From Nautiliaceae bacterium (lineage in GTDB: Bacteria; Campylobacterota; Campylobacteria; Campylobacterales; Nautiliaceae): a stretch of 25,158 nt of DNA. The notes below the pieces were generated by a model. It did no database searches, was not told where the DNA came from, and saw only the letters and a list, made by a program, of their open reading frames with translations. How positions within the stretch are numbered: the stretch's first letter is position 1; every line of letters begins with the position of its first letter. This document shows positions 5,858 through 25,158 of the stretch, one piece after another. Both the position numbers and the translations under genes were made by a program. The stretch is from positions 1 through 25,158 of the forward strand of contig JAMOSM010000163.1 in the NCBI GenBank assembly GCA_027063075.1, given 5' to 3'.

Positions 5858-6356
5858 TTTTTGCTTTCATCTCCCTAATTATCGCTCTTTCCCTTGCAGT
5901 AATAAAAGCATTATAGTCTTTTTCGTCTCTTTCGTGCATATGAAGTATTTTTGCCGTGTTTTCATCTATTGCTTCAAAAATTACAGGCACTTTTCTTTTA
6001 GGAAAAACAGGCAAATCAAATCTTGCATAATATTTTTTGCCTTTTTTAAAAAGTTTGTCTTTTATTTTAAAATATTCAAATCCAATTCCTTGCGTTTCAC
6101 TTTTATATTTTAAAGGAAGCAGTTTTTTTTCCTCGTTTTTTACAATAGAAGTAAGCTCATCCACTTTTCTGTGAAGCGCAACTAAAAGTTCAAGCAAAAC
6201 AGGGTCTGTATCTTTTGTTTCTCCTCTTGCCTTTGCAAGTTTAATATACTGTCCTATCGGGTCGTCACTCTCTCCTGAAAATTTATCAAACTCCTCTTTT
6301 AATTTTTCATTAAACTCATCAAACTCAACCTCAACATAAGCAGGAATTAACCTCAT
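5850..6356 (-). CDS. Conserved hypothetical protein, possibly PilZ-like
   Basis: The soluble 168-residue protein has an acidic N-terminal part (residues 1-50), a helical segment DPVLLELLVALHRKVDEL, and a beta-rich C-terminal half containing GIGFEYFKIKDKLFKKGKKYY, ARFDLPVFPKRKVPVIFEAI and KILHMHERDEKDYNAFITARE. The arrangement of a helix followed by a small barrel with 'YYARFDLP' recalls PilZ-like proteins of Campylobacterota, but I see no standard RxxxR / D-x-S-x-x-G c-di-GMP motif, so binding of that messenger should not be assumed. It overlaps its neighbours by 4 and 8 bases and is co-transcribed with the prenyltransferase gene. Confidence 0.55.
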   Translation of the reverse strand: MRLIPAYVEVEFDEFNEKLKEEFDKFSGESDDPIGQYIKLAKARGETKDTDPVLLELLVALHRKVDELTSIVKNEEKKLLPLKYKSETQGIGFEYFKIKDKLFKKGKKYYARFDLPVFPKRKVPVIFEAIDENTAKILHMHERDEKDYNAFITARERAIIREMKAKNG

Positions 6357-7192
6357 TTTAACGCCTTATCTAAAATAATAAAAACTAAAAATATAATTCC
6401 TAAAAATCCATTGACATCAAAAAAAGCTTTTGGAATATTTTTATAATCTTTATCTACAAGTTTATGTTCATAATAAAGTATAAAAGCAGAAATGATAACC
6501 CCAATCCATGCAAAAAAACCAAGATTAGCATAAGCTACAAACAAAGCCCAAAAAATTACGGCAAAAATATGAAACATTTCTGAAATAAAAAGCGCCCCTT
6601 TATCTCCTATAAGTGCCGGAATTGAATGAAGACCTTCGTTTTTGTCAAACTCCATATCCTGTAAAGAGTATAAAATATCAAATCCTCCAACCCAAAACAT
6701 AACGCCAAGCGCTAAAAAAACACTCCAGCAAGGAATTGTACCGGTAACAGCAATGGCTCCTGCAATAGGCGCAAGCCCTAGAGCAACCCCTAAAACAAGA
6801 TGGGCAAACTCGCTAAAACGTTTAAAATAACTATAAGATGCCAAAACAATTAAAATAGGAATTGAAAGCTTAAAAGCCAAATCATTAATAAGATATGCAA
6901 CCCCTATAAAAATTAAAGCGTTTGCTAAAATAAAAAGCTTCATTTCACTCTCATTAACTTCACCAGTAACTGAAGGTCTGTTTTTAGTTCTCGGATTTTT
7001 AGCATCAATATCCCTATCTACAAGCCTGTTAAAAGCCATTGCAAAATTTCTTGCACTAACAGCCGCTAAAATTCCAAGAAGCAGCAAATCCCATCCAAAC
7101 CATCCGTCAGCTCCGACTATCATAGCTATTAAGATAAAAGGTAGACTAAAAATAGTATGAGAAAATTTTACAAGCTCTAAATATTTTTTCAT
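6353..7192 (-). CDS. mqnP: UbiA-family prenyltransferase, probably MqnP of menaquinone synthesis
   Basis: The 279-residue integral membrane protein joins a polyprenyl chain to an aromatic quinone precursor. Both Asp-rich motifs that bind Mg-diphosphate are present: N55-R-L-V-D59-R-D61-x-D63 and D172-x-x-x-x-x-x-D179-x-x-x-D183. About eight hydrophobic helices are visible. Campylobacterota make menaquinone by the futalosine route, where the UbiA relative is MqnP acting on 1,4-dihydroxy-6-naphthoate, so I prefer that over a 4-hydroxybenzoate enzyme; the substrate is inferred from lineage, not from residues. AAGGA lies upstream of the ATG. It is divergent from miaA across 48 bases. Confidence 0.8.
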   Translation of the reverse strand: MKKYLELVKFSHTIFSLPFILIAMIVGADGWFGWDLLLLGILAAVSARNFAMAFNRLVDRDIDAKNPRTKNRPSVTGEVNESEMKLFILANALIFIGVAYLINDLAFKLSIPILIVLASYSYFKRFSEFAHLVLGVALGLAPIAGAIAVTGTIPCWSVFLALGVMFWVGGFDILYSLQDMEFDKNEGLHSIPALIGDKGALFISEMFHIFAVIFWALFVAYANLGFFAWIGVIISAFILYYEHKLVDKDYKNIPKAFFDVNGFLGIIFLVFIILDKALK

Positions 7193-10361: not shown

Positions 10362-11693
10362 CTAAAAACTTATAGTAGCGTTAAAAATATCTCCTGCAAC
10401 TATACCAAAATAGAGTGTTCCTGCAAGTAAAATAAGTTGTCCTATAAGACTGCCCGTAGACATTTGAATAACCTCATTCCCTTTTGGCTCATCAAAATAA
10501 ATATGTTTAATAATCCATACATAATATCCCACTGCAAGAGCTGAGTTTAAAAGTGCAATTAACACAACCCACCAAAGCCCTGCATCAACACCTGCATAAA
10601 ATGCTACTGCTTTAGATAAAAATCCTGCAAGCAGAGGAATTCCGGCAAGTGAGAAAAGTTGAATGGTAAATATAAACGAATGAAGAGGCGCTTTTTTATA
10701 AAGACCTTTAATATCTTCAAGATATTTAACGCCAAGTTCTCTTCTTAAATCATTAAGAATTAAAAATACGCTTGTTTGCATAAAAATATATGCCACTGCA
10801 TAATATAAAACCCCTGCATATGAATAAACACTTGCAGCCGCAGCAAAAGGAATCAATGCATATCCGCTGTGCGCTATTGATGAATATGCAAGAATTTTTG
10901 AAACCCTTTTTTGCCATAAAGCCATAAAGTTTGCAAGAGTCATTGTTAAAATTGCAAAGAAACTGAAAATTAATACTGTTGCAAGTGGATATGCTACCAA
11001 AAATTTATAAAAAGCTTTAAATGTAGCAAATAAAACTACACTTTTAATAACCCCACTTAAAATTGCAGCTGCCGCGTGATTTACCTGAGAGTAAGCATCA
11101 GCCGCCCATCCGTGCATAGGTACAACTGTAAGTTTGTAAAAAATACCAGCAAGCATAATTGCAACAGCAATTAATGTATATTTTCCTGCAATATTCATAC
11201 TTGCATAATCAAAACTATCAGTACTAAAACTAAAAAGTGCAAAACCTAGTAAAATAATACCACTTGCCACTGCACCTGCAATAAATGCCTTAATAGCACC
11301 TTCAGCGTTGTAGAAGTTTCTTATGTTTGCAACTAAAATATAAGAAATAATAGCAATTACTTCAAAAAGCACTATATAGATAAAAAAGTTGTTTGTTTCC
11401 AGAAATGCAACTGAAGCACCGGCTAAGAAAAGCATTTGCGCAATTAAAGGTCTCTCAAAACCTGTCAGCGCCAAAGAAACTGCTGCAAGTGTCACAAGTA
11501 ATACAAATTCCATAAGTCTTGTAGCATCGTCTGCTACAAAATAAGGAAAAAGACTTCCAAGACTCTGACCTGCAAAAATAAAATAAGCAGCCATAATAAA
11601 AGCTATAACCGCTATAAGCTTTGCAATTACAATATTATTTTTGTAAAAAATAGGAACTAATAATCCTGCCGCTATTAATACTATAAAACTCAT
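10362..11693 (-). CDS. nuoN: Complex I-like membrane subunit NuoN
   Basis: The 443-residue antiporter-like subunit has about 14 membrane helices and forms one proton path. Pumping residues seen are Glu111 in LFEVIAIISY, Lys187 in FYKLTVVPMHGW, and Lys217 in the helix AAAAILSGVIKSVVLF. It is shorter than the roughly 485-residue E. coli NuoN, losing N-terminal helices as in other bacteria with 14-helix forms. The start overlaps the nuoM stop by one base. It is the last nuo gene and is followed by pflA. Confidence 0.92.
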   Translation of the reverse strand: MSFIVLIAAGLLVPIFYKNNIVIAKLIAVIAFIMAAYFIFAGQSLGSLFPYFVADDATRLMEFVLLVTLAAVSLALTGFERPLIAQMLFLAGASVAFLETNNFFIYIVLFEVIAIISYILVANIRNFYNAEGAIKAFIAGAVASGIILLGFALFSFSTDSFDYASMNIAGKYTLIAVAIMLAGIFYKLTVVPMHGWAADAYSQVNHAAAAILSGVIKSVVLFATFKAFYKFLVAYPLATVLIFSFFAILTMTLANFMALWQKRVSKILAYSSIAHSGYALIPFAAAASVYSYAGVLYYAVAYIFMQTSVFLILNDLRRELGVKYLEDIKGLYKKAPLHSFIFTIQLFSLAGIPLLAGFLSKAVAFYAGVDAGLWWVVLIALLNSALAVGYYVWIIKHIYFDEPKGNEVIQMSTGSLIGQLILLAGTLYFGIVAGDIFNATISF

Positions 11694-13123
11694 TACATTC
11701 CTCCTAGGAAGCTAAATGCTTGATTTGCTAAATCGAAAATAGGCTGAGGATTGATACCAAAATAAACAATCAACACTGCATAAATGGCAAGTGCAAGTCT
11801 TTCAGCAAAACTCATAGAAAAATCTGCTTTTTCCACAATAGGACTCATAGGTCCGTGAATTGCACGTCTAACAGCCCAGATAATATAACCTGCACTAATC
11901 ATTCCGGCAAGTGCAATAATAGCAATCCACCATCCATAAGCTTTAACAGCTGAAACTATAATAGTAAGCTCCCCTACAAATCCCATAGTACCAGGAAGTC
12001 CAAGAGCCGCCATACCTGCTAAAATGAAAATAGCAGCCGCATAAGGTGCTTTTTTCATAATTCCACCCATTTCATCCATATACCACGTATGTGTTTTATG
12101 ATGAAGCCATCCGGCAATTAAAAACAGTGGTGAAATAACAAGTGCGTGTCCAATCATTTCGAATAAAGCCGCGCTAAGCCCGTCATAAGTCATAGTAGAA
12201 ATTGCAACTACAACAAGCCCCATATGAGAAATTGAAGAATATGCAACCATTTTTTTAATATGTTTTTCATAAATTGCAAGCATTCCCGCAAAGAATGTTG
12301 TAATAAGACCGAAAATCAACATATATTTTGCAAACTCAAGTGTTGTAATTGGCATAAGCTCAACTGTAAATCTGATAAGCCCGTATGCACCCATTTTAAG
12401 TAAAACACCTGCTAAAAGCACTGAAATAGAACTTGGCGCCTGAACGTGAGCATCAGGAAGCCATGTATGAAACGGAAATACAGGAAGTTTTGCTGCAAAT
12501 CCTAAAAACATCAGCCACCAGATAAGTGCAGGCGTTGCAAGTGCTGTTTCTTTGATTAAAGTTAAATCCCAATAACCTGTTTGTTTATATAAAAGATAAA
12601 ATCCAACAAACATAAACATCGCAAACACGTGAGTGTAAATAAAGAATTTAATTGCTGCATAAATTCTCTCTTCTGCACCCCAGATACCAACTAAGAAAAG
12701 CATAGGAACCAAAGTTAATTCCCAAAACATAAAAAACCATAAAACATTTGTTGTCATAAACACACCAAAAATAGGTCCGCTAAACATTATAAGAAGACTA
12801 AAATAAGCCGCTTGTTTTTTCTCATTCCAAGAAGTTAAAACTACTAAAATCAAAAGTGCAGCTGTTAAAAGAAGCATAGCTACACTAAGAGCATCTATCT
12901 GCAATGTCAGTTCAAACCCAAACTGAGGAACACTTAAAAAGTTTCCTAAAAATAAAAATCCTCCATCAACCGGTAATTGATGATACCAGTTAAGTGCAAT
13001 AATAAATAGCACCACAAACCATCCAAGCGCTATATATTTAGTTAAATGCTGCGCCCCGCGTGTTAAAAAATACACCAGGGCCGAAAAAACAATTGGTGCA
13101 AAAATAATATCTACCGCTACCAT
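11693..13123 (-). CDS. nuoM: Complex I-like membrane subunit NuoM
   Basis: The 476-residue antiporter-like subunit carries Glu135 in MFWELTLVPMLFLVGIWG, Lys212 in AAKLPVFPFHTWLPDAH and Lys243 in LLAGVLLKMGAYG. These are the signature charged residues of the Mrp-type proton path. Fourteen or so hydrophobic helices are visible. The start follows AAGGGG at the end of nuoL with a one-base gap. Confidence 0.94.
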   Translation of the reverse strand: MVAVDIIFAPIVFSALVYFLTRGAQHLTKYIALGWFVVLFIIALNWYHQLPVDGGFLFLGNFLSVPQFGFELTLQIDALSVAMLLLTAALLILVVLTSWNEKKQAAYFSLLIMFSGPIFGVFMTTNVLWFFMFWELTLVPMLFLVGIWGAEERIYAAIKFFIYTHVFAMFMFVGFYLLYKQTGYWDLTLIKETALATPALIWWLMFLGFAAKLPVFPFHTWLPDAHVQAPSSISVLLAGVLLKMGAYGLIRFTVELMPITTLEFAKYMLIFGLITTFFAGMLAIYEKHIKKMVAYSSISHMGLVVVAISTMTYDGLSAALFEMIGHALVISPLFLIAGWLHHKTHTWYMDEMGGIMKKAPYAAAIFILAGMAALGLPGTMGFVGELTIIVSAVKAYGWWIAIIALAGMISAGYIIWAVRRAIHGPMSPIVEKADFSMSFAERLALAIYAVLIVYFGINPQPIFDLANQAFSFLGGM

Positions 13124-13124
13124 T

Positions 13125-14975
13125 TTATAGCCCCTTTACAATAATTAAAATTGCTATAACGATAATTGCAACACCAAGAACGAATTGTCCCATATATGTA
13201 CCAATTTTACCGCTATGCCCAGCTCTGAAGACTTTATACACCATATATGTAAAGTCCAAAGTTTTATTTACAATATAATCAATTACATATGTATCAAACC
13301 ATCTTGCCGCTTTTGCAACAGCACCCACAATAATATTTTTAGAAATCCAAGTAATCATTGCCTCTACATAGTAACCATTGTAAAGGATTTGATGAATTGT
13401 CTGTACAAAGTGATGCGATGCAATTTTATATAGTAAGTTAAGTCCTTTAACATAAAGCCCAACTACAATTAAGAAAATAATTAGCATACATGTAAGCATA
13501 AACGCACCAAGACCTGCTACATGAGGCTCTATAAATTCTTCTCCTACAATATAATGAACAATATCCATTTGCCAGATGGAAATAAACAGTGTTAAAAATG
13601 CCAAAATTCCAAGAGGCAATCTCATCCATATATTACTTGGTTTATGAACACTTCCTCCCACCTCTTCGTGTCTTGGCTCACCAAGGAAGATTAAAATCCA
13701 AAGTCTTGTAATATATGCAATTGATAAAAGTGCCGCAATAGTTACAAATGTTTTTGTAAATCCGTTACCCCACTCCCAAGCAGCTGCAACTACCATCTCT
13801 TTAGAAAAATATCCACTAAACGGAGGAACACCTGCTAAGCTCAGTGAACCCATTGCCATAAATAAAGCTACAAAAGGAGCTGTTTTAATAAGACCTCCAA
13901 GTTTCCAAGCATCTTTTTGATGGTGTGCTATATAAATAACAGCACCTGCACTTAAGAATAAAAGCGCTTTAAATATTGCGTGGTTTACAAGGTGAAGCAT
14001 ACCTGCTGCAAGAGAACCTACTCCAAGCCCAACAAACGCAATTGATAAGTGAGACATAGTAGAATATGCCAAGATTTTTTTAATCTCTTTTTGTACAAGT
14101 GCAGAAGTAGCCCCAATAAACGCTGAAAGAGCCGCAACGTTTGCAACAATATAAAGTGCATCTGTATAGCTGAAGAAATCAAAAAGTCTTGCAACAATAT
14201 AAATACCACTGTTTACCATTGTAGCACCGTGAATTAGTGCCGATACAGTTGTCGGACCTTCCATAGCATTCATAAGCCATGGATATAATGGAAACTGACC
14301 AGACTTACCAATAGCACCCATAAAGATAAACAGCGCAGCAACTAAAGCAAGTGTTTTATCAAGTTCACCTGCGTTTGCCATCTCATTTAATTTTACTAAA
14401 TCAACAGTCCCAGCATAAAAGAATAAAAGAGCAATTGCCGCTAAAATGAAAATATCACCAAATCTTGTATATAAAAACGCCTGCATTCCGGCATCTGCTG
14501 CCGATTTTTTAAAATACCAGAAACTAATCAAAAGATAACTTGCAAGTCCCATAAATTCCCAACCAACAAAAGCACCGATTAAATCTTTTGTAATAACAAG
14601 TAAAATCATACCACCGATAAAGAAAAGTACTTTTGCATAATATCTCGGTTGGTCCGGGTCTTCTCCCATATAGTCATGGGCAAAGTGAATATCTAAAAAC
14701 CCAAGTCCGGTTGCTACAAGAAGCATTACAATTGAAAGATGGTCTATATAAATTCCAAATGGAAGCTCTAAGTTACCAAAATGTATCCACGTATATGTAA
14801 TATCAATTGGTGTGTCTGAATATTTTAAAAACAGAACAGCACTTGCTAAAAACAGCACAAAGCCTACTACCTCTGCTACCCAAAAGGCAAGTTCTCTTTT
14901 TGCCTTTCCTAAAATATACGCTAACACTGCTCCAACATAAGGAGCGATTAATAGTGTCATTACTGCATTATTCAT
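13125..14975 (-). CDS. nuoL: Complex I-like membrane subunit NuoL
   Basis: The 616-residue distal antiporter-like subunit keeps Glu140 in GWEFMGLASYLLISFW, Lys224 in GKSGQFPLYPWL and His249 in SALIHGATMV. After the antiporter fold, the region beyond about residue 500 includes a long amphipathic stretch and a final hydrophobic helix (GVAIIVIAILIIVKGL), as expected for the lateral helix that braces the membrane arm. Length matches the E. coli protein (613). It overlaps nuoK by 8 bases. Confidence 0.95.
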   Translation of the reverse strand: MNNAVMTLLIAPYVGAVLAYILGKAKRELAFWVAEVVGFVLFLASAVLFLKYSDTPIDITYTWIHFGNLELPFGIYIDHLSIVMLLVATGLGFLDIHFAHDYMGEDPDQPRYYAKVLFFIGGMILLVITKDLIGAFVGWEFMGLASYLLISFWYFKKSAADAGMQAFLYTRFGDIFILAAIALLFFYAGTVDLVKLNEMANAGELDKTLALVAALFIFMGAIGKSGQFPLYPWLMNAMEGPTTVSALIHGATMVNSGIYIVARLFDFFSYTDALYIVANVAALSAFIGATSALVQKEIKKILAYSTMSHLSIAFVGLGVGSLAAGMLHLVNHAIFKALLFLSAGAVIYIAHHQKDAWKLGGLIKTAPFVALFMAMGSLSLAGVPPFSGYFSKEMVVAAAWEWGNGFTKTFVTIAALLSIAYITRLWILIFLGEPRHEEVGGSVHKPSNIWMRLPLGILAFLTLFISIWQMDIVHYIVGEEFIEPHVAGLGAFMLTCMLIIFLIVVGLYVKGLNLLYKIASHHFVQTIHQILYNGYYVEAMITWISKNIIVGAVAKAARWFDTYVIDYIVNKTLDFTYMVYKVFRAGHSGKIGTYMGQFVLGVAIIVIAILIIVKGL

Positions 14976-15276
14976 CGCTCACCGCCTTATCAAGATTATC
15001 TGGAATAATCTCACCTGTAATTCTGTTTGCAAGGATAAAAATCAATACCCCAGCTGCCGCTTCAAGCGTTGCAATAACAATAATTACGTATGCTATCGCA
15101 AGACCTCTTGTAAGCCCAAAGTTATATGCTGCACTTGCAAGAAGCAAAATAACGGCATTTAAAAGCATCTCAAGTGAAAAGAAAATTTTTAAAAAGTCCG
15201 TTTTACTTGTAACTCCGTAAAGACCAACAGCAAAAAGAATAATTGCAGCTATTGCATCAATGTAAAAATGTACCAT
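14968..15276 (-). CDS. nuoK: Complex I-like membrane subunit NuoK
   Basis: This 102-residue protein has three membrane helices. The two membrane glutamates required for proton movement in E. coli NuoK are present at the same numbers: Glu36 in FFSLEMLLNAV and Glu72 in IATLEAAAGVL. AAAGGAA precedes the ATG. It starts 3 bases after the end of nuoJ. Confidence 0.94.
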   Translation of the reverse strand: MVHFYIDAIAAIILFAVGLYGVTSKTDFLKIFFSLEMLLNAVILLLASAAYNFGLTRGLAIAYVIIVIATLEAAAGVLIFILANRITGEIIPDNLDKAVSDE

Positions 15277-15279
15277 TTT

Positions 15280-15747
15280 TTATTCCTTTCCGTGTTTTAG
15301 AGTATGCAGCATCCTAATACTTCCATATAAAACGCTTGCAGCTACAACACCCATAAAAATTGCAATCTCAGCATAAAAATCTGTAAAAATTTTAACTTGG
15401 TCTTTTAAAGGAATAGCTTTTCCTTCATAAGGAATTTCCGGAAGTAAAAACGGAACAATAATAAGACCAATTACAACTAAAGTTACAACAGAAACTGCCC
15501 AAGGTCTAATTTCAAATTTTGGAAACTTCGCCCCAATTACAGTTACACCAAAAAGTGTAAGAACTACAATTCCGCCCGTATATACAAAAATCTGGAAAAG
15601 TCCAAGCAGTTTCTCACCCATAAAGATGTAATAAATTCCAAGTAAAAACATCATTAAAACAAATGCAATTACTGCAGGAACGGTATTTTTTTGAGTTAAA
15701 CTCATAACTGCTAAGATAATCGCTAAAGCCAAAATCAAAACACTCAT
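15280..15747 (-). CDS. nuoJ: Complex I-like membrane subunit NuoJ
   Basis: I start this gene at the ATG at 15747 (MSVLILALAII), giving 155 residues with five membrane helices. The frame continues 24 codons further upstream into nuoI, but AAAGGAG lies six bases before this ATG and the extra residues would be a basic, non-membrane stretch. Helix 3 reads LLGLFQIFVYTGGIVVLTLFGVTVIG, the NuoJ region (Q-x-x-V-Y-x-G-G-I/A) that shifts to a pi-bulge during turnover in known complex I structures. C-terminal residues lie on the cytoplasmic side. Confidence 0.92.
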   Translation of the reverse strand: MSVLILALAIILAVMSLTQKNTVPAVIAFVLMMFLLGIYYIFMGEKLLGLFQIFVYTGGIVVLTLFGVTVIGAKFPKFEIRPWAVSVVTLVVIGLIIVPFLLPEIPYEGKAIPLKDQVKIFTDFYAEIAIFMGVVAASVLYGSIRMLHTLKHGKE

Positions 15748-15748
15748 T

Positions 15749-16351
15749 CTATTCTCCTTTTGCAACAGGCTTATTAGCCTCTTTTTTGTCACTATTCTCT
15801 TCTGGCTTTTTATTCTCATTAGCTTCAGGTTTAGCCTTCGCTTTTGCTTCAGCCTCAGCTTTTGCTTTTGCTTCGGCTTCTGCTTTTTTCTTAGCCATCA
15901 TTTCTCTTTTTTTTCTTGCTTTTTCTTCTTCTTCACGTTTTTTCTGTTCAATCCACTCTTCAGGAATTTCAACCCTCACCCAGAAATTATCAAGTGCATC
16001 AGGAGTTCCTTGTGTAATCATCTCAATATCACCGCCGCTAAGTTTAATTGCTTTTTCAGGTTTTGTAGGACATACATCTTCACAAAGACCGCAAAAAATA
16101 CAAATTGCCAAATTCACTTCCGGAACTATTCTTGGCTTTTTAATAGGAAGAGGCTTCATTTTAATCGCATCAACAGGACAGATTTTATTACACGCATCAC
16201 ACCCAATGCACAGCTCATATTTAATTTCGTGCCTTCCCCTAAAAATAGGAGATTTATGAGCCGGTTTTTTTACTATGTCTTTTGTAGCGATTCTTGGCTC
16301 TGTAAAAGTCTTCATTACCCTTATTATTTTTTCTCCAATATCATAAATCAT
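15749..16351 (-). CDS. nuoI: Complex I-like ferredoxin subunit NuoI with charged C-terminal tail
   Basis: NuoI carries two [4Fe-4S] clusters that pass electrons towards NuoB. Both Cys sets are complete: C48, C51, C54, C58 (CIGCDACNKICP) and C84, C87, C90, C94 (CIFCGLCEDVCP). The fold ends near residue 132. Residues about 136-200 form a tail made mostly of Lys, Ala and Glu (EEEEKARKKREMMAKKKAEA, then more AEAKAK repeats and an Asn/Pro/Lys/Glu-rich end) that standard NuoI proteins of about 160-180 residues do not have. AGGAGC precedes the ATG, one base after the nuoH stop. Confidence 0.93.
   Translation of the reverse strand: MIYDIGEKIIRVMKTFTEPRIATKDIVKKPAHKSPIFRGRHEIKYELCIGCDACNKICPVDAIKMKPLPIKKPRIVPEVNLAICIFCGLCEDVCPTKPEKAIKLSGGDIEMITQGTPDALDNFWVRVEIPEEWIEQKKREEEEKARKKREMMAKKKAEAEAKAKAEAEAKAKAKPEANENKKPEENSDKKEANKPVAKGE
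15828..15893. repeat. Low-complexity GCTTTT/GCTTCA-type repeat inside nuoI
   Basis: Imperfect 6-base units (gcttca, gctttt, gcttcg and similar on the plus strand) encode the Ala-Glu-Ala-Lys run of the NuoI tail. Such a tract can change length by slippage in whole codons. Confidence 0.6.
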
Positions 16352-16352
16352 C

Positions 16353-17324
16353 TTACGCTCCTAAAATATATAATCTTGCAAAAGTCACCCAAACCAAGTT
16401 TAAAACTGCAAGAGGCGCTAAATAACTCCAGCAAAACTTAAGCATCTGGTCAAGTCTAAGTCTTGGGTTTGATGCCCTAATTGCCACCATTACAACTGCA
16501 AGAAGTGCAATTTTTAAAAACAGCCACCAGAAACTGTCAAAGAAAAGTCCTCTGTATCCTCCAAAAAATAAAACAACTGCACTTGCCGATACAACTAAAA
16601 TCTCTGTAAATTCAGCAAATTTAAGCAAAGTATAATTTGTACCCGCATACTCTGTATAAAATCCATACACAATTTCCTGTTCAGCATCCGGAATATGAAA
16701 AGGAGGCTGTTCAAGAATTCCTAGCATTGCAATAATATAAATAATAGCACCCGGAAGTAAAATAAGAGTTGTCAGCCACGTGTTTGAATACATTATTTCA
16801 TATAGATTCATTGTCCCAAACAAAATTGCAGGACTTAACGCTGCTAAAAAGAAAGGCGCTTCCATTGAAAGCATCTGAGCTAAAATTCTCATACCTCCAA
16901 GAAATGAGTATTTGTTATTACTCCCAAAACCTGTAAGGAAAAGTAAAAACGGCTCAACCCCGATTAAAACAACAAGCCCAAGTACTCCATACTCCGTATC
17001 TAAAATTCCATGACCGTTGTTAATTAAAGGAGTCCAAGGAATTAAAATTACAGGCAGTGCCGCAACTAAAGGAGTTATTATCGGAATAATGTTAAAAAGA
17101 TAAGGGTCTGCACTTTTTGGAGTGATTGATTCTTTTGTCAAAAGTTTAAAGACATCATAAACCGTCTGTAAACTTCCAGCAGGTCCGTTGTAATGAGGAC
17201 CTACCCTTTTATGAAGATACGCTAACACTTTTCTTGCAAAATAAAATACAAAAAATGTCCAGGCAAGCAGGAAAAGTAAACCTGGAAAAACTAAAATATA
17301 AAATAGCATTGCTCCTATACTCAT
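16353..17324 (-). CDS. nuoH: Complex I-like membrane subunit NuoH
   Basis: The 323-residue subunit connects the peripheral arm to the membrane arm and lines the quinone tunnel in complex I. Seen are RVGPHYNGPAGSLQTVYDVFKLLTKE (from about residue 40), about eight membrane helices, and the cytoplasmic loop EQPPFHIPDAEQEIVYGFYTEYAG (from residue 205). In canonical NuoH that loop reads E-T-N-R-x-P-F-D-L-P-E-x-E; the EQPPFHIPDAE form is closer to what I recall for group 4 hydrogenase and Fpo/Mbx-type relatives. AAGGAGA precedes the ATG. It directly follows nuoCD, with no nuoG between. Confidence 0.93.
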   Translation of the reverse strand: MSIGAMLFYILVFPGLLFLLAWTFFVFYFARKVLAYLHKRVGPHYNGPAGSLQTVYDVFKLLTKESITPKSADPYLFNIIPIITPLVAALPVILIPWTPLINNGHGILDTEYGVLGLVVLIGVEPFLLFLTGFGSNNKYSFLGGMRILAQMLSMEAPFFLAALSPAILFGTMNLYEIMYSNTWLTTLILLPGAIIYIIAMLGILEQPPFHIPDAEQEIVYGFYTEYAGTNYTLLKFAEFTEILVVSASAVVLFFGGYRGLFFDSFWWLFLKIALLAVVMVAIRASNPRLRLDQMLKFCWSYLAPLAVLNLVWVTFARLYILGA

Positions 17325-17333
17325 CTTCTCTCC

Positions 17334-19007
17334 TTATCTATCTAAGTCACCCTGACAGATATGCATACTACCATAAAGCAGTGGAATATCTGACAGGGTA
17401 TGTCCTGGTAAAAGATTTTCTAACATCATTGTATGATTTACACTTGGCGCTTTTATTTTTAATCTGTAAGGGGATGTAGCTTTATCCTGAGTTACAAGGT
17501 GCATTAAAATTTCTCCCCTTGCCCATTCAATTCTGCTTACCGCTTCACCTGCCGGGAGTCTTTTTGGCATTTTTACTAAGTGGTCTTTTTTAGGATTCAT
17601 TTCACCACTTTCAATGCCTTCTTCAATTTTTTTCATAGCCTGTTTGATTAAATCAATTGATTGATTTACCTCTTTATAAATAATATAAAGCCTGTCTCTT
17701 GCATCCCCATTTTCACAGCTTACATAATCCATCTCAAGCTCACCATAAGCTGCATAAGGCTCATCAATCCTTACATCAATCTTAGCTCCGCTTGCCCTTG
17801 CAATAGGACCTGCAAGATAATACTCTTCTACATCTTCAAGGCTAAACACTCCCGTATCTTTTGCTCTTACCGTCATAAGAGGGTTTTTTAAGAAAATATC
17901 TTCAATATCAGGTTTTGTTTTTTCCCATTTTGCAATAGCCTCTTCTATTTCATTAAACCAAGCCTTATAGTCATTTAGAGGATATCTAACACCTCCCGGT
18001 TCTACACAAGAAGTTGCAATCCTAGCTCCGCTGTAATCTTCAAGTACATCAAGAAAATACTCTCTTACATCAAGACACCACATTAAAAATGTCTGAAGTC
18101 CCATTGTTCCGAAAAATCCACCCATTGAAATAAGGTGAGAGGCAATTCTTCCAGTTTCACCTAAAATCACCCTCATATATTTAGCAAAAGGAGTAATCTC
18201 TTTTCCTGCAATTTCTTCTACTGCTTGAGAGTAACATATCATAGGGTTTGGATTGTCCATAAAACAGATTCTCTCAACCGCTACAATAGTTCCTATAAAA
18301 TCTTTTCTTTCACTAAGATTTTCTAACGCTCTCCAAACATATCCTATATCAGGCTCGACTTTTTCTATATTTTCACCATTTACAAAAACTTTAAGTCTAA
18401 TAGGTCCGCTTGCAGGGTGAGTTGGTCCCCAGTGAAGAACGGTTCTGCTGCCTTCATGGCCTAATGTTTTTTCGTGTTCTTCATATTCTTTATAAAACTC
18501 TTCTGTAATTGAGTTTACATTTTCAATTAAATGCTTTTCATGCTCTTTCCAATCAAAATCTTTTCTAAAAGGAAATTTTCCATAATAATCGCGAGAAATC
18601 AAGAAATATCTGAGATTTGGATGCCCTTTGAATTTAACCCCGAATGTGGAATAAGCTTCAAGTTCGTGATAATTTGCACTTGGCATAATAGGAGTAATTG
18701 AATCAATTTCACATTTTTCAAGGTCTCTATCTAAATCAACTTTTAACCATACATTAACTTTTTCTTTTTCCCTGCTTGAAACAGAAGGATTTAAACTCTC
18801 AAGAAAATAATTTACCTCAATTCTATTCTCATCAATAAAATCGGTAGGAGATACTGTAGAACAGCTCTTAACTCCAGCCTCTTTTAACTCTTTTACAAGA
18901 GAAGTTAAATCTTCTTTGTTTTTGAGTTTTGCTTTTACCCAAGATTTATAATCTTCCACATACTCAACATCATATTTTGAAATTATATTTTTAATCTCTT
19001 CTCTCAT
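17334..19007 (-). CDS. nuoCD: Fused NuoC-NuoD subunit, hydrogenase-like divergent form
   Basis: The 557-residue fusion has a NuoC domain to about residue 155 (ELEAYSTFGVKFKGHPNLRY and FPFRKDF are its marks) and a NuoD domain from about 185 (LHWGPTHPASGP to the C-terminus). The closing GDLDR is complex I-like. Unusual points: the second His of the NuoD H-P-x-x-H-G motif is missing (HPASGP, 197-202); the quinone-site Tyr (Tyr87 of Thermus Nqo4) aligns with Phe249 in RICFMD; and the four positions holding Ni-binding Cys in [NiFe] hydrogenases are C248, D251, C551 and D554. So it is neither an ordinary NuoD nor an active [NiFe] hydrogenase by sequence. AAGGA precedes the ATG. Orthodox Campylobacter NuoC and NuoD are separate proteins. 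Confidence 0.9.
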   Translation of the reverse strand: MREEIKNIISKYDVEYVEDYKSWVKAKLKNKEDLTSLVKELKEAGVKSCSTVSPTDFIDENRIEVNYFLESLNPSVSSREKEKVNVWLKVDLDRDLEKCEIDSITPIMPSANYHELEAYSTFGVKFKGHPNLRYFLISRDYYGKFPFRKDFDWKEHEKHLIENVNSITEEFYKEYEEHEKTLGHEGSRTVLHWGPTHPASGPIRLKVFVNGENIEKVEPDIGYVWRALENLSERKDFIGTIVAVERICFMDNPNPMICYSQAVEEIAGKEITPFAKYMRVILGETGRIASHLISMGGFFGTMGLQTFLMWCLDVREYFLDVLEDYSGARIATSCVEPGGVRYPLNDYKAWFNEIEEAIAKWEKTKPDIEDIFLKNPLMTVRAKDTGVFSLEDVEEYYLAGPIARASGAKIDVRIDEPYAAYGELEMDYVSCENGDARDRLYIIYKEVNQSIDLIKQAMKKIEEGIESGEMNPKKDHLVKMPKRLPAGEAVSRIEWARGEILMHLVTQDKATSPYRLKIKAPSVNHTMMLENLLPGHTLSDIPLLYGSMHICQGDLDR

Positions 19008-19016
19008 ACCCCGTCC

Positions 19017-19490
19017 TTAAAACTTCATTTGTTTCCAGAGACCGCCTTGGCTTGAAGCAGACGGCTCACCTCTTTTGATTTTTTCTTTAAGCTCTTCAAG
19101 ACCTGCAACTATTGCTTCTGGTTTTGGAGGACAACCTGCAACAAAAACATCTGCGGGCAAAATTTCTGTCATATTTTTAATAACCGAAGGAGAATCATTA
19201 TAAGGACCTCCATCATAAGCACACGCACCAATTGCAACAACATATCTAGGTTCTGGCATCTGCTCATATGTTCTAAGAAGAGCTGGAAGTATTTTTTTAC
19301 TAACAAGACCTGTGATAAAAATAATATCAGCCTGTCTTGGTGTTGGAGTCATAATATACCCATATCTCTCCCAGTCATATCTTGGTCCCATTGCCGCAAG
19401 CATCTCAAGCGAACAACAACCGCTACAAAAATGAACTATCCAAGGACTTTTACTTCTTGCATAGTTAAAAAAATCAAGCACTTTTAGCAT
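19017..19490 (-). CDS. nuoB: Complex I-like iron-sulfur subunit NuoB
   Basis: The 157-residue subunit holds the terminal [4Fe-4S] cluster N2. The tandem Cys pair C25-C26 (CSGCCSLEM), C90 (IGACAYDGG) and C120 (AGCPPKPE) supply the ligands. There is an extra Cys22 three residues before the pair, giving C-x-x-C-C, which recalls the C-x-G-C motif of hydrogenase small subunits. ERYGYIMTPTPRQADIIFITG follows, with Thr where canonical NuoB has an R-S before P-R-Q-A-D. AAGGAG precedes the ATG, which lies 17 bases inside nuoA. Confidence 0.93.
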   Translation of the reverse strand: MLKVLDFFNYARSKSPWIVHFCSGCCSLEMLAAMGPRYDWERYGYIMTPTPRQADIIFITGLVSKKILPALLRTYEQMPEPRYVVAIGACAYDGGPYNDSPSVIKNMTEILPADVFVAGCPPKPEAIVAGLEELKEKIKRGEPSASSQGGLWKQMKF

Positions 19491-19812
19491 TTCTATACTC
19501 CTTCATACTAACTGTAATTGCCGCAAACAAAAGCATTCCAAAAATCATCGCCCACTCAAGAGCTTTTGGATTGTCCGCAAATACAAAAAGACTGAAAAAA
19601 AGCCCTGCCATATCAAAAACAATAAAGGCAATGGCAAAAATAAAATAACCAAAGTTTGCCTTCATAGGCACTTCAGAACTTGGTGGAAGACCACATTCAA
19701 AATGGTCGTTTTTAATTTCACCAGGATTAAAAGGCGCTATGATAATCCCTAAAAAATACAAAAGCAAAACACCTGCAAGTATTCCGCTACCATAAATTAA
19801 AATGGTTTCCAT
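19474..19812 (-). CDS. nuoA: Complex I-like membrane subunit NuoA
   Basis: The 112-residue protein has three membrane helices. The loop with HFECGLPPSSEVPMKANFGYF matches NuoA, including the conserved Cys40. In the second helix the canonical F-D-x-E motif reads FDMA (Asp67 kept, Glu replaced by Ala69), and the usual L-Y-P-W after it is FFSLFV. That Glu sits in the acid chain leading from the quinone tunnel in known structures. It is the first gene of the nuo operon, with AAAGGAG before the ATG and a strong promoter upstream. Confidence 0.9.
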   Translation of the reverse strand: METILIYGSGILAGVLLLYFLGIIIAPFNPGEIKNDHFECGLPPSSEVPMKANFGYFIFAIAFIVFDMAGLFFSLFVFADNPKALEWAMIFGMLLFAAITVSMKEYRNAKSA

Positions 19813-19956: not shown

Positions 19957-21663
19957 TCAAGCAATAAACCCAACCTCTTTTTCCTTATCAAACGCACTTC
20001 TTTTTTCTTTTTCAATCTCCTCTATAAAATCTATTGTTTTAAAAACAGGATTTTTGCGAATTGCGACTTTCAAAGCAGTATTTTTTACAACAAGTTCAAT
20101 CTGCGCACCTGTAAGTTCATATTTTGCCAGTTTTTTAATATCAAAATCTTCTTCAAAATCCGCATTTTTAGGTAATTTTAACTCCCAAAGCTTAACTCTT
20201 TCTTTAAAAGATGGCTTTGTAAATTCGATTTTATAATCAAATCTTCTTGAAAAAGCATTATCAATTGTCTCAAGTAAATTTGTAGTAGCAATTAAAAGCC
20301 CCTCAAACCTCTCAAGTTGTTCAAGAAAAATATTTTGCATCTGATTATGCATCTTATCCGCACTGCTAAAAGAAGCCGTTGTTCTGGTTGAGAGAAACTG
20401 GTCTGCTTCATTAAGTAACAAAACAGGCTTTGTTTTAAGTTTTTCGCTTATTTCATAATATTCGTCAAACAATCTTCTTACATTTTTTTCACTCTCTCCT
20501 ACATACATAGACAAAATCTTGCTTGCATCAAGAGATAAAATAGGTTTATTTAACTCTTTTGCAATTGAATAAGCTGTTAATGTTTTACCGGTTCCGGGAG
20601 TTCCGTAAAAAATAATTTTTGCTTGAATATCAGAACTTGATTTTATTCCCCATTTTTTAAGAAGATTTAAAACTCTTTTATCAATCTGTTTTAAAAGGGT
20701 ATTTAACATCTCTTTTGTTTTTTTTGGCAGAATTACATCTTCTAAAGAAGTTTTAGGCTCTATTAAATCAAAAATTGTATCTTTTACTAAATGCTCAAGT
20801 TTGTGTTTTTTTCTTGGATGGATTAGCTCATTTAAAACATCTTCATTTATAAAATAAATTCTTGTATATCCTCCAAATCCTCCAAAAATTTCATCGTAAT
20901 CCAAAATCCCCTCACTTACAAGCTTAGAGTTTTCATCAAGAAGCGAGCGGTTTTTAATTCTTTCAATTTCATCAGAACTTATTAAATTTAAAAGATAATT
21001 AAGCTCTCTTAAATTTTCATTTGAGTGCATATACTCCTCTTTTAAAAGAGCTAAAAATATAAGTTTTTCTTTTTCATTAAATTCATTTTCCAGCATAAAA
21101 TTAAAAACCGGCAAATCAATTGTGGTTTTTTTAATTTTTTCTTTTATAGTGTTTTCTATCAATACAAGTTTACTTTGAAGTCTTTTAATAGAGGCAGACT
21201 GAGTTGAGTAACTGTTTTTTAAATTTGCAAGCTGTTCGTAAATTTCTATTTTTAAAAACTCATCGTGTAAATACTCAAGATGGTCTTGATAAGGAGTATT
21301 TTGAGGTATTACTAAATCAAGTTCCCCTTTTTCAAGCAGTTTCAAAAAAGACAAAGACAAAGAAACATTAGAATTAAAAAGCTCTAGCAAGGTTATATCA
21401 CTGCTTTTTACACTAATACCACTCAAAACAATCCAGCCCTCATTTAAAAGATTTTTTATCAAATCTATCTTTTCAAATGCCTCTATATAATTTTTTTTAT
21501 AAATTTCTTCAAGAAGAGTCCTAACCCTTACATCTTCTTTCCCTTCTAAATAACTTTTAAGAAGCTCTTTTAAAATATCAAGCTCTTCGTCTTTTACATT
21601 CAAAAGAGTATATATTTTTGTTTTTTTAGGATTTTCCAAAAAATCTTTTATATTTTGTACCAA
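19957..21663 (-). CDS. AAA-family ATPase with large N-terminal domain
   Basis: This 568-residue cytosolic protein has a 340-residue mostly helical N-terminal region of unknown function and a single AAA module: Walker A GTPGTGKT (354-361), Walker B LLLNEAD (415-421), sensor 1 LLIATTN, and the arginine finger in FSRRFD (471-476). The closing helical subdomain has LTGAQIELVVKNTALK. It resembles the CDC48/FtsH-type ATPase core but has no protease or membrane helix, so it probably remodels or unfolds a partner protein; the partner is not evident. Walker B has Asn418 in place of the usual Asp before Glu419. The start is TTG, well supported by AAAGGAG five bases upstream. Divergent from rsmE. Confidence 0.8.
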   Translation of the reverse strand: MVQNIKDFLENPKKTKIYTLLNVKDEELDILKELLKSYLEGKEDVRVRTLLEEIYKKNYIEAFEKIDLIKNLLNEGWIVLSGISVKSSDITLLELFNSNVSLSLSFLKLLEKGELDLVIPQNTPYQDHLEYLHDEFLKIEIYEQLANLKNSYSTQSASIKRLQSKLVLIENTIKEKIKKTTIDLPVFNFMLENEFNEKEKLIFLALLKEEYMHSNENLRELNYLLNLISSDEIERIKNRSLLDENSKLVSEGILDYDEIFGGFGGYTRIYFINEDVLNELIHPRKKHKLEHLVKDTIFDLIEPKTSLEDVILPKKTKEMLNTLLKQIDKRVLNLLKKWGIKSSSDIQAKIIFYGTPGTGKTLTAYSIAKELNKPILSLDASKILSMYVGESEKNVRRLFDEYYEISEKLKTKPVLLLNEADQFLSTRTTASFSSADKMHNQMQNIFLEQLERFEGLLIATTNLLETIDNAFSRRFDYKIEFTKPSFKERVKLWELKLPKNADFEEDFDIKKLAKYELTGAQIELVVKNTALKVAIRKNPVFKTIDFIEEIEKEKRSAFDKEKEVGFIA

Positions 21664-23258: not shown

Positions 23259-25158
23259 TTAAATTTCTTCAAGTCCGTATTTAATATGTTTTTCTTTTTT
23301 ATGTTTAGAGATTAAATATCTCCAATACAATATAGGCACAACAATAACAGAAAGTAAAGTAGAAGCTAACACACCAAAAATCAGTGCAACAGCAAGCCCT
23401 TGCCATACAGGGTCTAATACAATAACAAATGATGCTAAGATAATAGCAAAAGCCGTTAAAATAATCGGTCTAAATCTTGTAGCCGCCGCTTCAATTACAG
23501 CTTCATTTATACTTCTGCCCTGTTTTATAAGCTCATCAGTAAAATCAATAAGTAAAAGAGAGTTTCTAACAACAATACCGGCAAGAGCAATAAAACCTAT
23601 CATACTTGTAGAAGTAAAATACGTCTTTGAATCAAATAAAGCAAGAGTAATCCAGTTCATTAAAGCATGTCCTGGAAGAACTCCTATAAATGTTAGAGGA
23701 ACCGCCGCAAGCACTATTCTAGGAACCCTGAAATTTTTATAATAAGCAACCATTAAAAGATAAATTAAAATAATCGCAACTATAAACGCACCTCCTAAAT
23801 CCCTAAATACGTCAAATGTAAGCTCCCATTCTCCTCCCCAGATTAAATCATACTCTTTTCCGGTTTTTTCTTCAATAGCTTTAAGATTAAGTCTTGGATT
23901 TCCATCATAAATAATTTTATATCCAGGAATTCCTTTTTCTCTTAAATAATTAAAAATATCAAGAAGTGCATATAAACTTCCTCTTTTATCCATCTCTCCA
24001 GTCACCATAACCATAGGGCGAAGGTCTTTGCTTGTTATCATTCCATCAAATGCAACAGCTTCAATTTTTACAACCTCTTTTAAAGGAACAAGTCTTCCTG
24101 TAACAGGTGACATAAGTTTAATTTTATCAAGAGCTTCAATAGAATTTCTTGCCTGTTTTTCAAACCTTACAAAAATTCCAACCTGTTCTTTTTCACTTGG
24201 AATATGAGCAACACTTACAACCGCACCTCTTATACCCATTCCAAGAATTTTTGCAATCTGGTCTGTGCTTATTCCAAGAGTAGCTGCTTTTTCTTTATCC
24301 GGAACAATTTTATATTTGATAATTTGTCTGTCTCTCATAATATCAATATCAACAACTTTTGGAGTTTTTTTATAAATTTCTTCTATATAGTTTGCAAGTT
24401 TAAGTCTTCCTTCTTCATCTCCTCCGAATACCTGCATTAAAAGTGTTGCAATTACAGGTGGTCCTGGAGGGTCTTCTACAAGTTTAATATTTGCATTATG
24501 CATACTACACTGAGACTGAATAATAGGTCTTAGGCGGCTTACCATATCAATTGAGCTCTCTTTTCTACCCTCTTCTTTAGGGAATAAATTAACTCTTATT
24601 TCTCCGTAATTTTCCCCCTGTTTCATAGAACTACCTCTTAAAAGTCCGTTAAAATCAACAACCCCGCTAATTCCTATAAATTGTTCAAAATCGTGAATTT
24701 CAGGCTCTTTTTCAAGAATTTTCGCCACACAGTTGCTAACTTCTGTTGTTGCATCAATACTGCTTCCTTTTGGAAGGTCAATTGTAATATTAAAAGTATT
24801 TTTATTAGCACTTGGAAGCATTTTAAATAAAACTATCTTAAATACAGGTAAAGCCATACTTCCAAGCAGCGCTAAAATTAAAACTGTAAAAAATAGTGCT
24901 CTTTTTGCAGTTGAATTTAAAAGAGGGTCTAAAATTGAATGGAAAATTTTAAATGTTTTTGTTTTTCTAATATCAAAAGGCTCTTTATGTTCGTGTTTAT
25001 GTTCTGGCAGAAATTTAACAGCAGCCCAAGGTGTAAAGATATAAGCCACTACAAGTGAAGCTATCATAGCAACAGGAACGTTAAAAGGAATTGGTCTCAT
25101 ATAAGGACCCATCATACCTGTAACGAAAAACATAGGCACAAACGCTAAAATAATAGCC
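23259..25158 (-). CDS. RND-family efflux pump inner-membrane subunit (partial, C-terminal part)
   Basis: The frame stays open to the window edge, so the N-terminal part of the gene is missing; about 632 residues are present. They begin inside a membrane helix (AIILAFVPMFFVTGMMGPYM) and contain the second periplasmic domain, then the C-terminal membrane bundle with FIALAGIVVRNSLLLIDF, AAATRFRPIILTAFAIILAS and FGVLASTLLSVIVVPILYWR. These are marks of AcrB/CusA-type proton-driven pumps, which work as trimers with a periplasmic adaptor and an outer-membrane channel. The substrate cannot be read from this part. The HEHKHEHKE-like cytoplasmic loop is His-rich but this alone does not prove metal transport. 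The stop is followed by the hairpin at 23211-23240. Confidence 0.9.
   Translation of the reverse strand, partial: AIILAFVPMFFVTGMMGPYMRPIPFNVPVAMIASLVVAYIFTPWAAVKFLPEHKHEHKEPFDIRKTKTFKIFHSILDPLLNSTAKRALFFTVLILALLGSMALPVFKIVLFKMLPSANKNTFNITIDLPKGSSIDATTEVSNCVAKILEKEPEIHDFEQFIGISGVVDFNGLLRGSSMKQGENYGEIRVNLFPKEEGRKESSIDMVSRLRPIIQSQCSMHNANIKLVEDPPGPPVIATLLMQVFGGDEEGRLKLANYIEEIYKKTPKVVDIDIMRDRQIIKYKIVPDKEKAATLGISTDQIAKILGMGIRGAVVSVAHIPSEKEQVGIFVRFEKQARNSIEALDKIKLMSPVTGRLVPLKEVVKIEAVAFDGMITSKDLRPMVMVTGEMDKRGSLYALLDIFNYLREKGIPGYKIIYDGNPRLNLKAIEEKTGKEYDLIWGGEWELTFDVFRDLGGAFIVAIILIYLLMVAYYKNFRVPRIVLAAVPLTFIGVLPGHALMNWITLALFDSKTYFTSTSMIGFIALAGIVVRNSLLLIDFTDELIKQGRSINEAVIEAAATRFRPIILTAFAIILASFVIVLDPVWQGLAVALIFGVLASTLLSVIVVPILYWRYLISKHKKEKHIKYGLEEI

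Follow-up and report, generated by a model that had tools for sequence, protein, structure and literature searches.

The window analyzed here, a 25,158-nucleotide stretch of a Nautiliaceae contig, carries a complex I-like operon in the order nuoA-B-CD-H-I-J-K-L-M-N, encoding ten polypeptides that represent eleven modules. All genes lie on the (-) strand: nuoA (19474..19812), nuoB (19017..19490), the fused C/D subunit gene nuoCD (17334..19007; 557 aa), nuoH (16353..17324), nuoI (15749..16351), nuoJ (15280..15819), nuoK (14968..15276), nuoL (13125..14975), nuoM (11693..13123), and nuoN (10362..11693). There is no NADH module in the operon, as neither nuoE, nuoF, nor nuoG is among the operon genes here or in the related loci read. 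We found the same gene order in 10 of 12 related loci; of the other two, the stretch fetched for L099 stops after nuoI, and the frames of L017 run together. We refer to this operon and its relatives as the family.

NuoL passed the TIGR01974 cut-off and NuoB passed two NuoB models; NuoH, NuoD, NuoC, and NuoI scored below the cut-offs of theirs. NuoCD was read from its open reading frame (ORF) and its relatives, and the naming of NuoA, J, K, M, and N relies on the resemblance between ORFs of the window and those of related operons rather than on curated models, with nuoA matched in all 12 loci. NuoI, the presumed point of electron entry, has two 4Fe-4S motifs and ends in an Ala/Lys/Glu-rich tail of ~70 residues. 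The listed nuoJ ORF overlaps nuoI and probably starts too early, as relatives of 147 to 158 aa suggest a later start. Campbell et al. described a Nautilia operon without nuoE, F, G, and K and suggested reverse electron transport to NAD(P)H (PMC2628731, available excerpts); unlike in that description, nuoK is present in the window.

All seven genes of a complex I-type membrane arm (NuoA, H, J, K, L, M, and N) are in the operon. Charged motifs with a recognized role in antiporter-like subunits are present in all three subunits of this kind, and the membrane anchor NuoH has NuoH models as its best profile matches. We also encountered true MBS-type clusters in other Campylobacterota (L104, L105, and L106), with MbsL-like CxxE/CxxE motifs (RICVPEPD, and ICPPEIER or ICPPEMER) and NuoB-like proteins that read AYGTGCGA, without a counterpart of MbsJ C25. 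Against the window NuoH and NuoL, these clusters scored 36-46 and 82-107 bits, respectively, versus 93-131 and 236-273 bits for canonical subunits.

The window NuoB contains the motif HFCSGCCSLEM, in which C22, C25, and C26 provide the complex I Cys-Cys pair and a Cys in register with MbsJ C25. All 54 family rows have the pattern HFC[ST]GCCS; several of these rows come in duplicate from the same genome. The Cys-Cys pair makes four ligands available for the proximal cluster. Among PDB entries, NuoB matched MbsJ best (145.4 bits), with mitochondrial NDUFS7 practically level at 144.8 bits. Judged by its motif, NuoB is a hybrid of the two types.

Elsewhere in the window, MqnP, a menaquinone prenyltransferase, is encoded at 6353-7192 (-) (458.7 bits; cut-off, 375), and the organism probably makes menaquinone. 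An AAA ATPase gene (19957-21663, -) lies just upstream of nuoA; its best curated match, the anti-phage ATPase IteA, reached 112.6 bits against a cut-off of 510. An RND-type permease gene (23259-25139, -) lies at the window edge, with a best curated RND score of 172.9 against a cut-off of 1250. The neighbor comparison covered the TPR and AAA genes, and both recur beside the operon in 1 of the 12 loci (L103).

Residues at the nickel-ligand columns of NuoCD

The D half of NuoCD contains two motifs, R246-I-C248-F-M-D251 and S547-M-H-I-C551-Q-G-D554-L-D-R557, the latter followed directly by the stop codon. To place these residues, we aligned 15 family, 21 MBS, 14 canonical NuoD, and 7 hydrogenase rows, anchored on an Arg conserved without exception across the four groups (window R246, Nqo4 R84, MbsL R83, and MbhL R66). 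C248, D251, C551, and D554 fall on C68, C71, C374, and C377 of Pyrococcus furiosus MbhL, which are its four NiFe ligand cysteines. The ORF reading and the anchored alignment together bear out the sequence-only reading, which had placed Cys-Asp-Cys-Asp at the nickel-ligand positions. The C248 codon (18264..18266, -) shares its column with MbsL C85 and Nqo4 D86, the D251 codon (18255..18257, -) with MbsL E88 and Nqo4 H89, and the C551 codon (17355..17357, -) with MbsL C385 and Nqo4 V403; the column of the D554 codon (17346..17348, -) is acidic in canonical NuoD as well. In soluble hydrogenases, nickel is bound terminally by the leading Cys of a pair, and the other Cys is a bridging ligand, so the terminal-ligand cysteines are those kept in NuoCD. 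By homology, the four columns would surround one pocket rather than lie far apart, which had been named beforehand as a sign against the reading. The predicted model is least certain at this site, with a mean pLDDT of 57 for residues 191-200 and 65 for residues 551-557.

The four residues are nearly invariant among relatives. CDCD was found in 119 of 120 relatives at 70-92% identity (best 120 of 408 matches). A search started from a distant member (best 120 of 584 matches) added 115 relatives, 114 of which have CDCD; the exceptions, P0107 in the first set and P0245 in the second, have broken C termini. Other cysteines of the D half (C258, C311, C334, and C431) are mostly replaced in the second set (n = 115). 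Free variation of the four columns among close relatives, named beforehand as a sign against the reading, did not occur, and on the alignments the CDCD set is under strict constraint, beyond chance. The C terminus of the family ends in DLDR. In L020 (genome G411) and P0245, the broken C terminus lacks the second Cys/Asp pair, through either an assembly error or a real frameshift.

The same columns in the 14 canonical NuoD rows hold Asp (9) or Asn (5); Ser (8), Ala (5), or His (1); Val (8) or Ile (6); and Glu (13) or Asp (1). Thus, the contrast with canonical NuoD drawn earlier holds for three columns, and D554 is no departure. The His taken as canonical in the first pair belongs to a single one of these sequences, that of Thermus. 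The idea of a set intermediate between hydrogenases and complex I survives insofar as the columns are homologous, fixed in the family, and hold two cysteines where group 4 enzymes have four and complex I has none, but the set is not singular, as MBS and MBX are alike in this respect.

The Cys-acid pattern is in fact the rule among MBS-type proteins. P. furiosus MbsL, the MBS large subunit, reads R-I-C85-V-P-E88 and C385-P-P-D388. In a set made up of the best 120 of 5048 matches plus MbsL and the window, both cysteines were present in 122 of 122 rows and acids occupied the other two columns in 120 (CDCE, 87; CECD, 19; CDCD, 12, window included; CECE, 2; CECR, 1; CECG, 1). C248 and C551 were invariant across 63 aligned family and MBS proteins. 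We therefore rejected the notion that the set is peculiar to NuoCD, since MbsL-type proteins as a rule have Cys-x-x-acid in both motifs. A missing C-terminal maturation peptide was likewise rejected as evidence, because 9 of 10 distinct Nautiliaceae hydrogenase ORFs also end in DPCxSCTxR with no extension.

The quinone site and related enzymes

Residues of the quinone site are replaced throughout the family. Counterparts of Thermus Nqo4 His38, Tyr87, and Asp139, the last of which we take to be a quinone-site residue, were absent from all 15 family rows and present in all 14 canonical NuoD rows. At S200-G201 (18405..18410, -), the loop is shorter by one residue and lacks a counterpart of His38. 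F249 (18261..18263, -) occupies the Tyr87 column, with Phe in 120 of 120 and 115 of 115 listed relatives, and T301 (18105..18107, -) occupies the Asp139 column, where the family has Thr, Asn, or Ser. The His, Tyr, and Asp were also absent in 21 of 21 MBS rows, and the accessible part of the MBS study likewise reports the His38 and Tyr87 counterparts absent (PMC7684303).

H549 (17361..17363, -) lies in the column of the canopy Asp (Nqo4 D401), which is His or Tyr in nearly the whole family: His prevails in the first set of relatives (113 of 120) and Tyr in the second (112 of 115), each set being drawn from the best 120 matches. The canopy Asp is described as strictly conserved in the accessible text of a paper on FHL (PMC9474812); we found Asn in 10 of the 14 canonical rows, and the column is hence less strict than stated there. 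An Arg at the canopy position was present in all 15 family rows and all 7 hydrogenase rows versus 2 of 14 canonical rows.

Of the known systems, MBS and MBX (P. furiosus MbsL/MbsJ, PDB 6u8y) share with NuoCD the two hydrogenase cysteines, acids in the other two columns, and the lack of quinone residues. MBS differs in that its arm is Mrp-like and three cysteines hold its proximal cluster (PMC7684303, in the portion available); the family has a complex I arm, a fused C/D subunit, a NuoB Cys-Cys pair, and a NuoD in its own clade. The group 4 [NiFe] hydrogenases MbhL and HycE share the fold and two of the four NiFe ligands, but the other two ligand columns are acidic in NuoCD. Ehr complexes are also hydrogenase relatives without Ni- and Fe-coordinating residues, and are set apart by their description with Mrp antiporter-like subunits rather than by sequence comparison (PMC6349859, excerpts).

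Two types of complex I also lack NADH input. The 11-module enzyme of Desulfitobacterium shares modules A-D and H-N and has no NuoEFG in its operon. It is discussed as quinone reducing in the available sections of PMC11238625, whereas the window has two cysteines and no quinone residues; this contrast is drawn from the description of the enzyme. The epsilonproteobacterial complex I of the flavodoxin/ferredoxin type is from the same phylum (PMC4585668, as far as accessible) but differs in its canonical His, Tyr, and Asp pocket in the copies examined from Campylobacterota. A Campylobacterota clade made up of a complex I-like variant is reported in PMC12361115, whose accessible portion does not mention two-Cys pocket residues, and we found neither a description of a two-Cys complex I variant nor an experiment on one in the open-access literature searched, some of it available in part. 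What is novel is the combination of a complex I arm and NuoH with a NuoB Cys-Cys pair and absent quinone residues; the two-Cys/acid pattern itself is already known from MBS and MBX. Based on these comparisons, the complex is very probably a relative of complex I in architecture with an MBS-type two-Cys pocket, at the place where quinone binds in complex I and NiFe sits in hydrogenases.

Distribution and branching order

All 21 genomes of the window's taxonomic family, taken as Nautiliaceae from protein names and papers, carry the two-Cys type, 19 with a full CDCD frame and two with a C-terminal piece that has CD in the last two columns; nine of the 21 are incomplete or contaminated. We found no canonical NuoD in these 21 genomes, in which the top PF00346 match reached 214.4 bits versus 336-391 for ten canonical copies elsewhere. 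None passed the TIGR01962 NuoD cut-off, which is a weak test, as only 5 of 11 matching control genomes pass it. NuoF was absent from 12 of 12 near-complete Nautiliaceae genomes, and over all 21 there was one 16.8-bit match, far below the cut-off. Nautiliaceae also carry true group 4-like hydrogenases, for which the names Ech or Coo are inferred from protein names and papers. The NrfD-type subunit profile PF14589 matched 17 of 21 Nautiliaceae genomes and 0 of 14 controls, but is too loose to name PsrC. Nautilia is known for H2-driven reduction of sulfur and nitrate and for CO2 fixation by the rTCA cycle (PMC2628731 and PMC10092268, accessible excerpts).

In 397 Campylobacterota genomes drawn evenly across the phylum, 15 have the two-Cys type, ten of them Nautiliaceae. 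A contig scan by two peptide patterns confirmed 20 loci, and the family's outer edge lies beyond the best 120 matches taken from each protein search (of 408, 5048, and 584). Carriers include Thiovulum, Thiotrichales, and Sulfurovum, the last of which has both kinds of NuoD, and among the matches listed the sources of relatives also name Sulfurimonas and Hydrogenimonas. We examined nine carriers outside Nautiliaceae: the five from the 397-genome set plus L017 (Thiomicrospira cyclica), L019 (Thiotrichales), L020 (Helicobacteraceae), and L021 (Thiovulum). In each of the nine, a canonical NuoD accompanies the two-Cys copy, and the ten canonical copies all keep the His38, Tyr87, and Asp139 counterparts; among the nine two-Cys copies, that of G411 is broken near the C terminus. 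Two NuoD copies with opposite pockets in one genome argue for different reactions.

In NuoD trees, the family forms one clade (100/100) and the MbsL rows form a separate clade (100/100), with the family not inside the latter. When rooted with hydrogenases, trees placed the family outside MBS plus canonical NuoD, with support of 98/92 and 99/96 for NuoD, 92/88 for NuoB+NuoD, and 87/60 with MbhL as the only outgroup. The four tests gave p-AU values of 0.158, 0.017, 0.125, and 0.113 for family plus canonical and 0.074, 0.048, 0.33, and 0.135 for family plus MBS, so that the alternative topologies fell below p 0.05 in one data set only, and the family and MBS may be sister clades. The tree program flagged long branches, and HycE was removed from the second NuoD tree for this reason. 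Canonical sampling is thin, at 13-14 NuoD rows, ten of them from Campylobacterota, with no FpoD or cyanobacterial row.

NuoH suggests a different placement from NuoD, namely with canonical complex I: the family joins canonical NuoH at 99/97, and family plus MBS has a p-AU of 0.021, in a tree in which the hydrogenase rows did not form one side of a branch. The trees cover NuoD, NuoB+NuoD, and NuoH, with none for NuoC, I, J, K, L, M, or N. If the arm gives the true placement, the simplest story would be that the two-Cys pocket is ancestral to MBS, the family, and complex I, and that canonical complex I later lost the cysteines and gained the quinone residues. A regain of both cysteines from canonical NuoD would be less simple. 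A bolder possibility, which we regard as speculative and fairly unlikely, is that the family is a surviving stem lineage of complex I whose three-pump arm formed while the pocket was still of the two-Cys, pre-quinone kind, and that it now works without quinone as a sulfur-linked ferredoxin reductase driven by proton-motive force, or in reverse.

Possible functions

The pocket and the distribution suggest that the complex probably acts on something other than quinone. The putative substrate is most likely sulfane sulfur or polysulfide. Ferredoxin would donate electrons at NuoI, from where they would reach the proximal cluster of NuoB, beside which the non-quinone partner, likely sulfane sulfur or polysulfide, would react, and the membrane arm would move protons. 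In rTCA autotrophs, the complex may run in reverse, with proton-motive force pushing electrons from sulfide-level donors onto ferredoxin; such operation would be possible because three antiporter-like subunits suit a large energy gap. This direction may apply given general knowledge of redox potentials and rTCA autotrophy. Taken as a whole, the reading of a complex I relative that is linked to ferredoxin, pumps protons, has an MBS-like pocket, and plays a putative role in sulfur rather than quinone chemistry is, in our estimation, evenly balanced between right and wrong. Because NuoB keeps the complex I Cys-Cys pair, the open-iron cluster chemistry of MBS is not directly transferable.

The enzyme might still be a ferredoxin:menaquinone oxidoreductase, in which other residues, such as His or Tyr 549, hold and protonate the headgroup and the two cysteines are relics. 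The complex I-type arm and NuoH would fit such an enzyme, and four further findings favor it and count against the sulfur reading: the NuoB Cys-Cys pair, the MqnP gene in the window, the conservation of a His or Tyr at column 549 that could serve quinone, and the fact that no other complex I-like complex was found in Nautiliaceae. We consider menaquinone reduction a serious contender but unlikely overall, as the three quinone-site residues are jointly lost in all 15 family rows and the nine other carriers all keep a canonical copy alongside.

It had also been proposed that the two Cys and two Asp bind a metal. A single Fe, Ni, or Zn ion, catalytic or structural, held by these residues would account for their near invariance in both relative sets, and the homologous columns bind NiFe in hydrogenases. 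This proposal is weakened by the finding that an MbsL C85A/C385A double mutant had activity comparable to that of the wild type (PMC7684303, in the accessible text), which speaks against a metal site, since the same Cys pair is dispensable for MBS activity; moreover, the D554 column is acidic in canonical complex I too. We view a metal site as improbable, and the two cysteines were more likely inherited with the pocket. That the complex is a group 4 [NiFe] hydrogenase is hardly credible despite the canopy Arg shared with hydrogenase rows and the presence of true group 4-like hydrogenases in Nautiliaceae, and we rejected a [NiFe] site because the CxxC pairs are incomplete, with two of the four Cys ligands missing in every complete member.

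In published schemes, complex I evolved from hydrogenase via MBS, whose arm is Mrp-like. The family pairs a complex I arm with an MBS-like pocket, unlike MBS in these schemes, and confirmation of the branching order would mean that the pumping arm arose before the quinone site. The family would allow the question of whether pumping by complex I depends on quinone chemistry to be put to a natural test, and carriers include cultivated species. Some vent and sulfide-loving bacteria carry a two-Cys variant of complex I, and metabolic models of vents may assign the wrong reaction to the Nautiliaceae enzyme of this kind, which is annotated as an NADH:quinone oxidoreductase.
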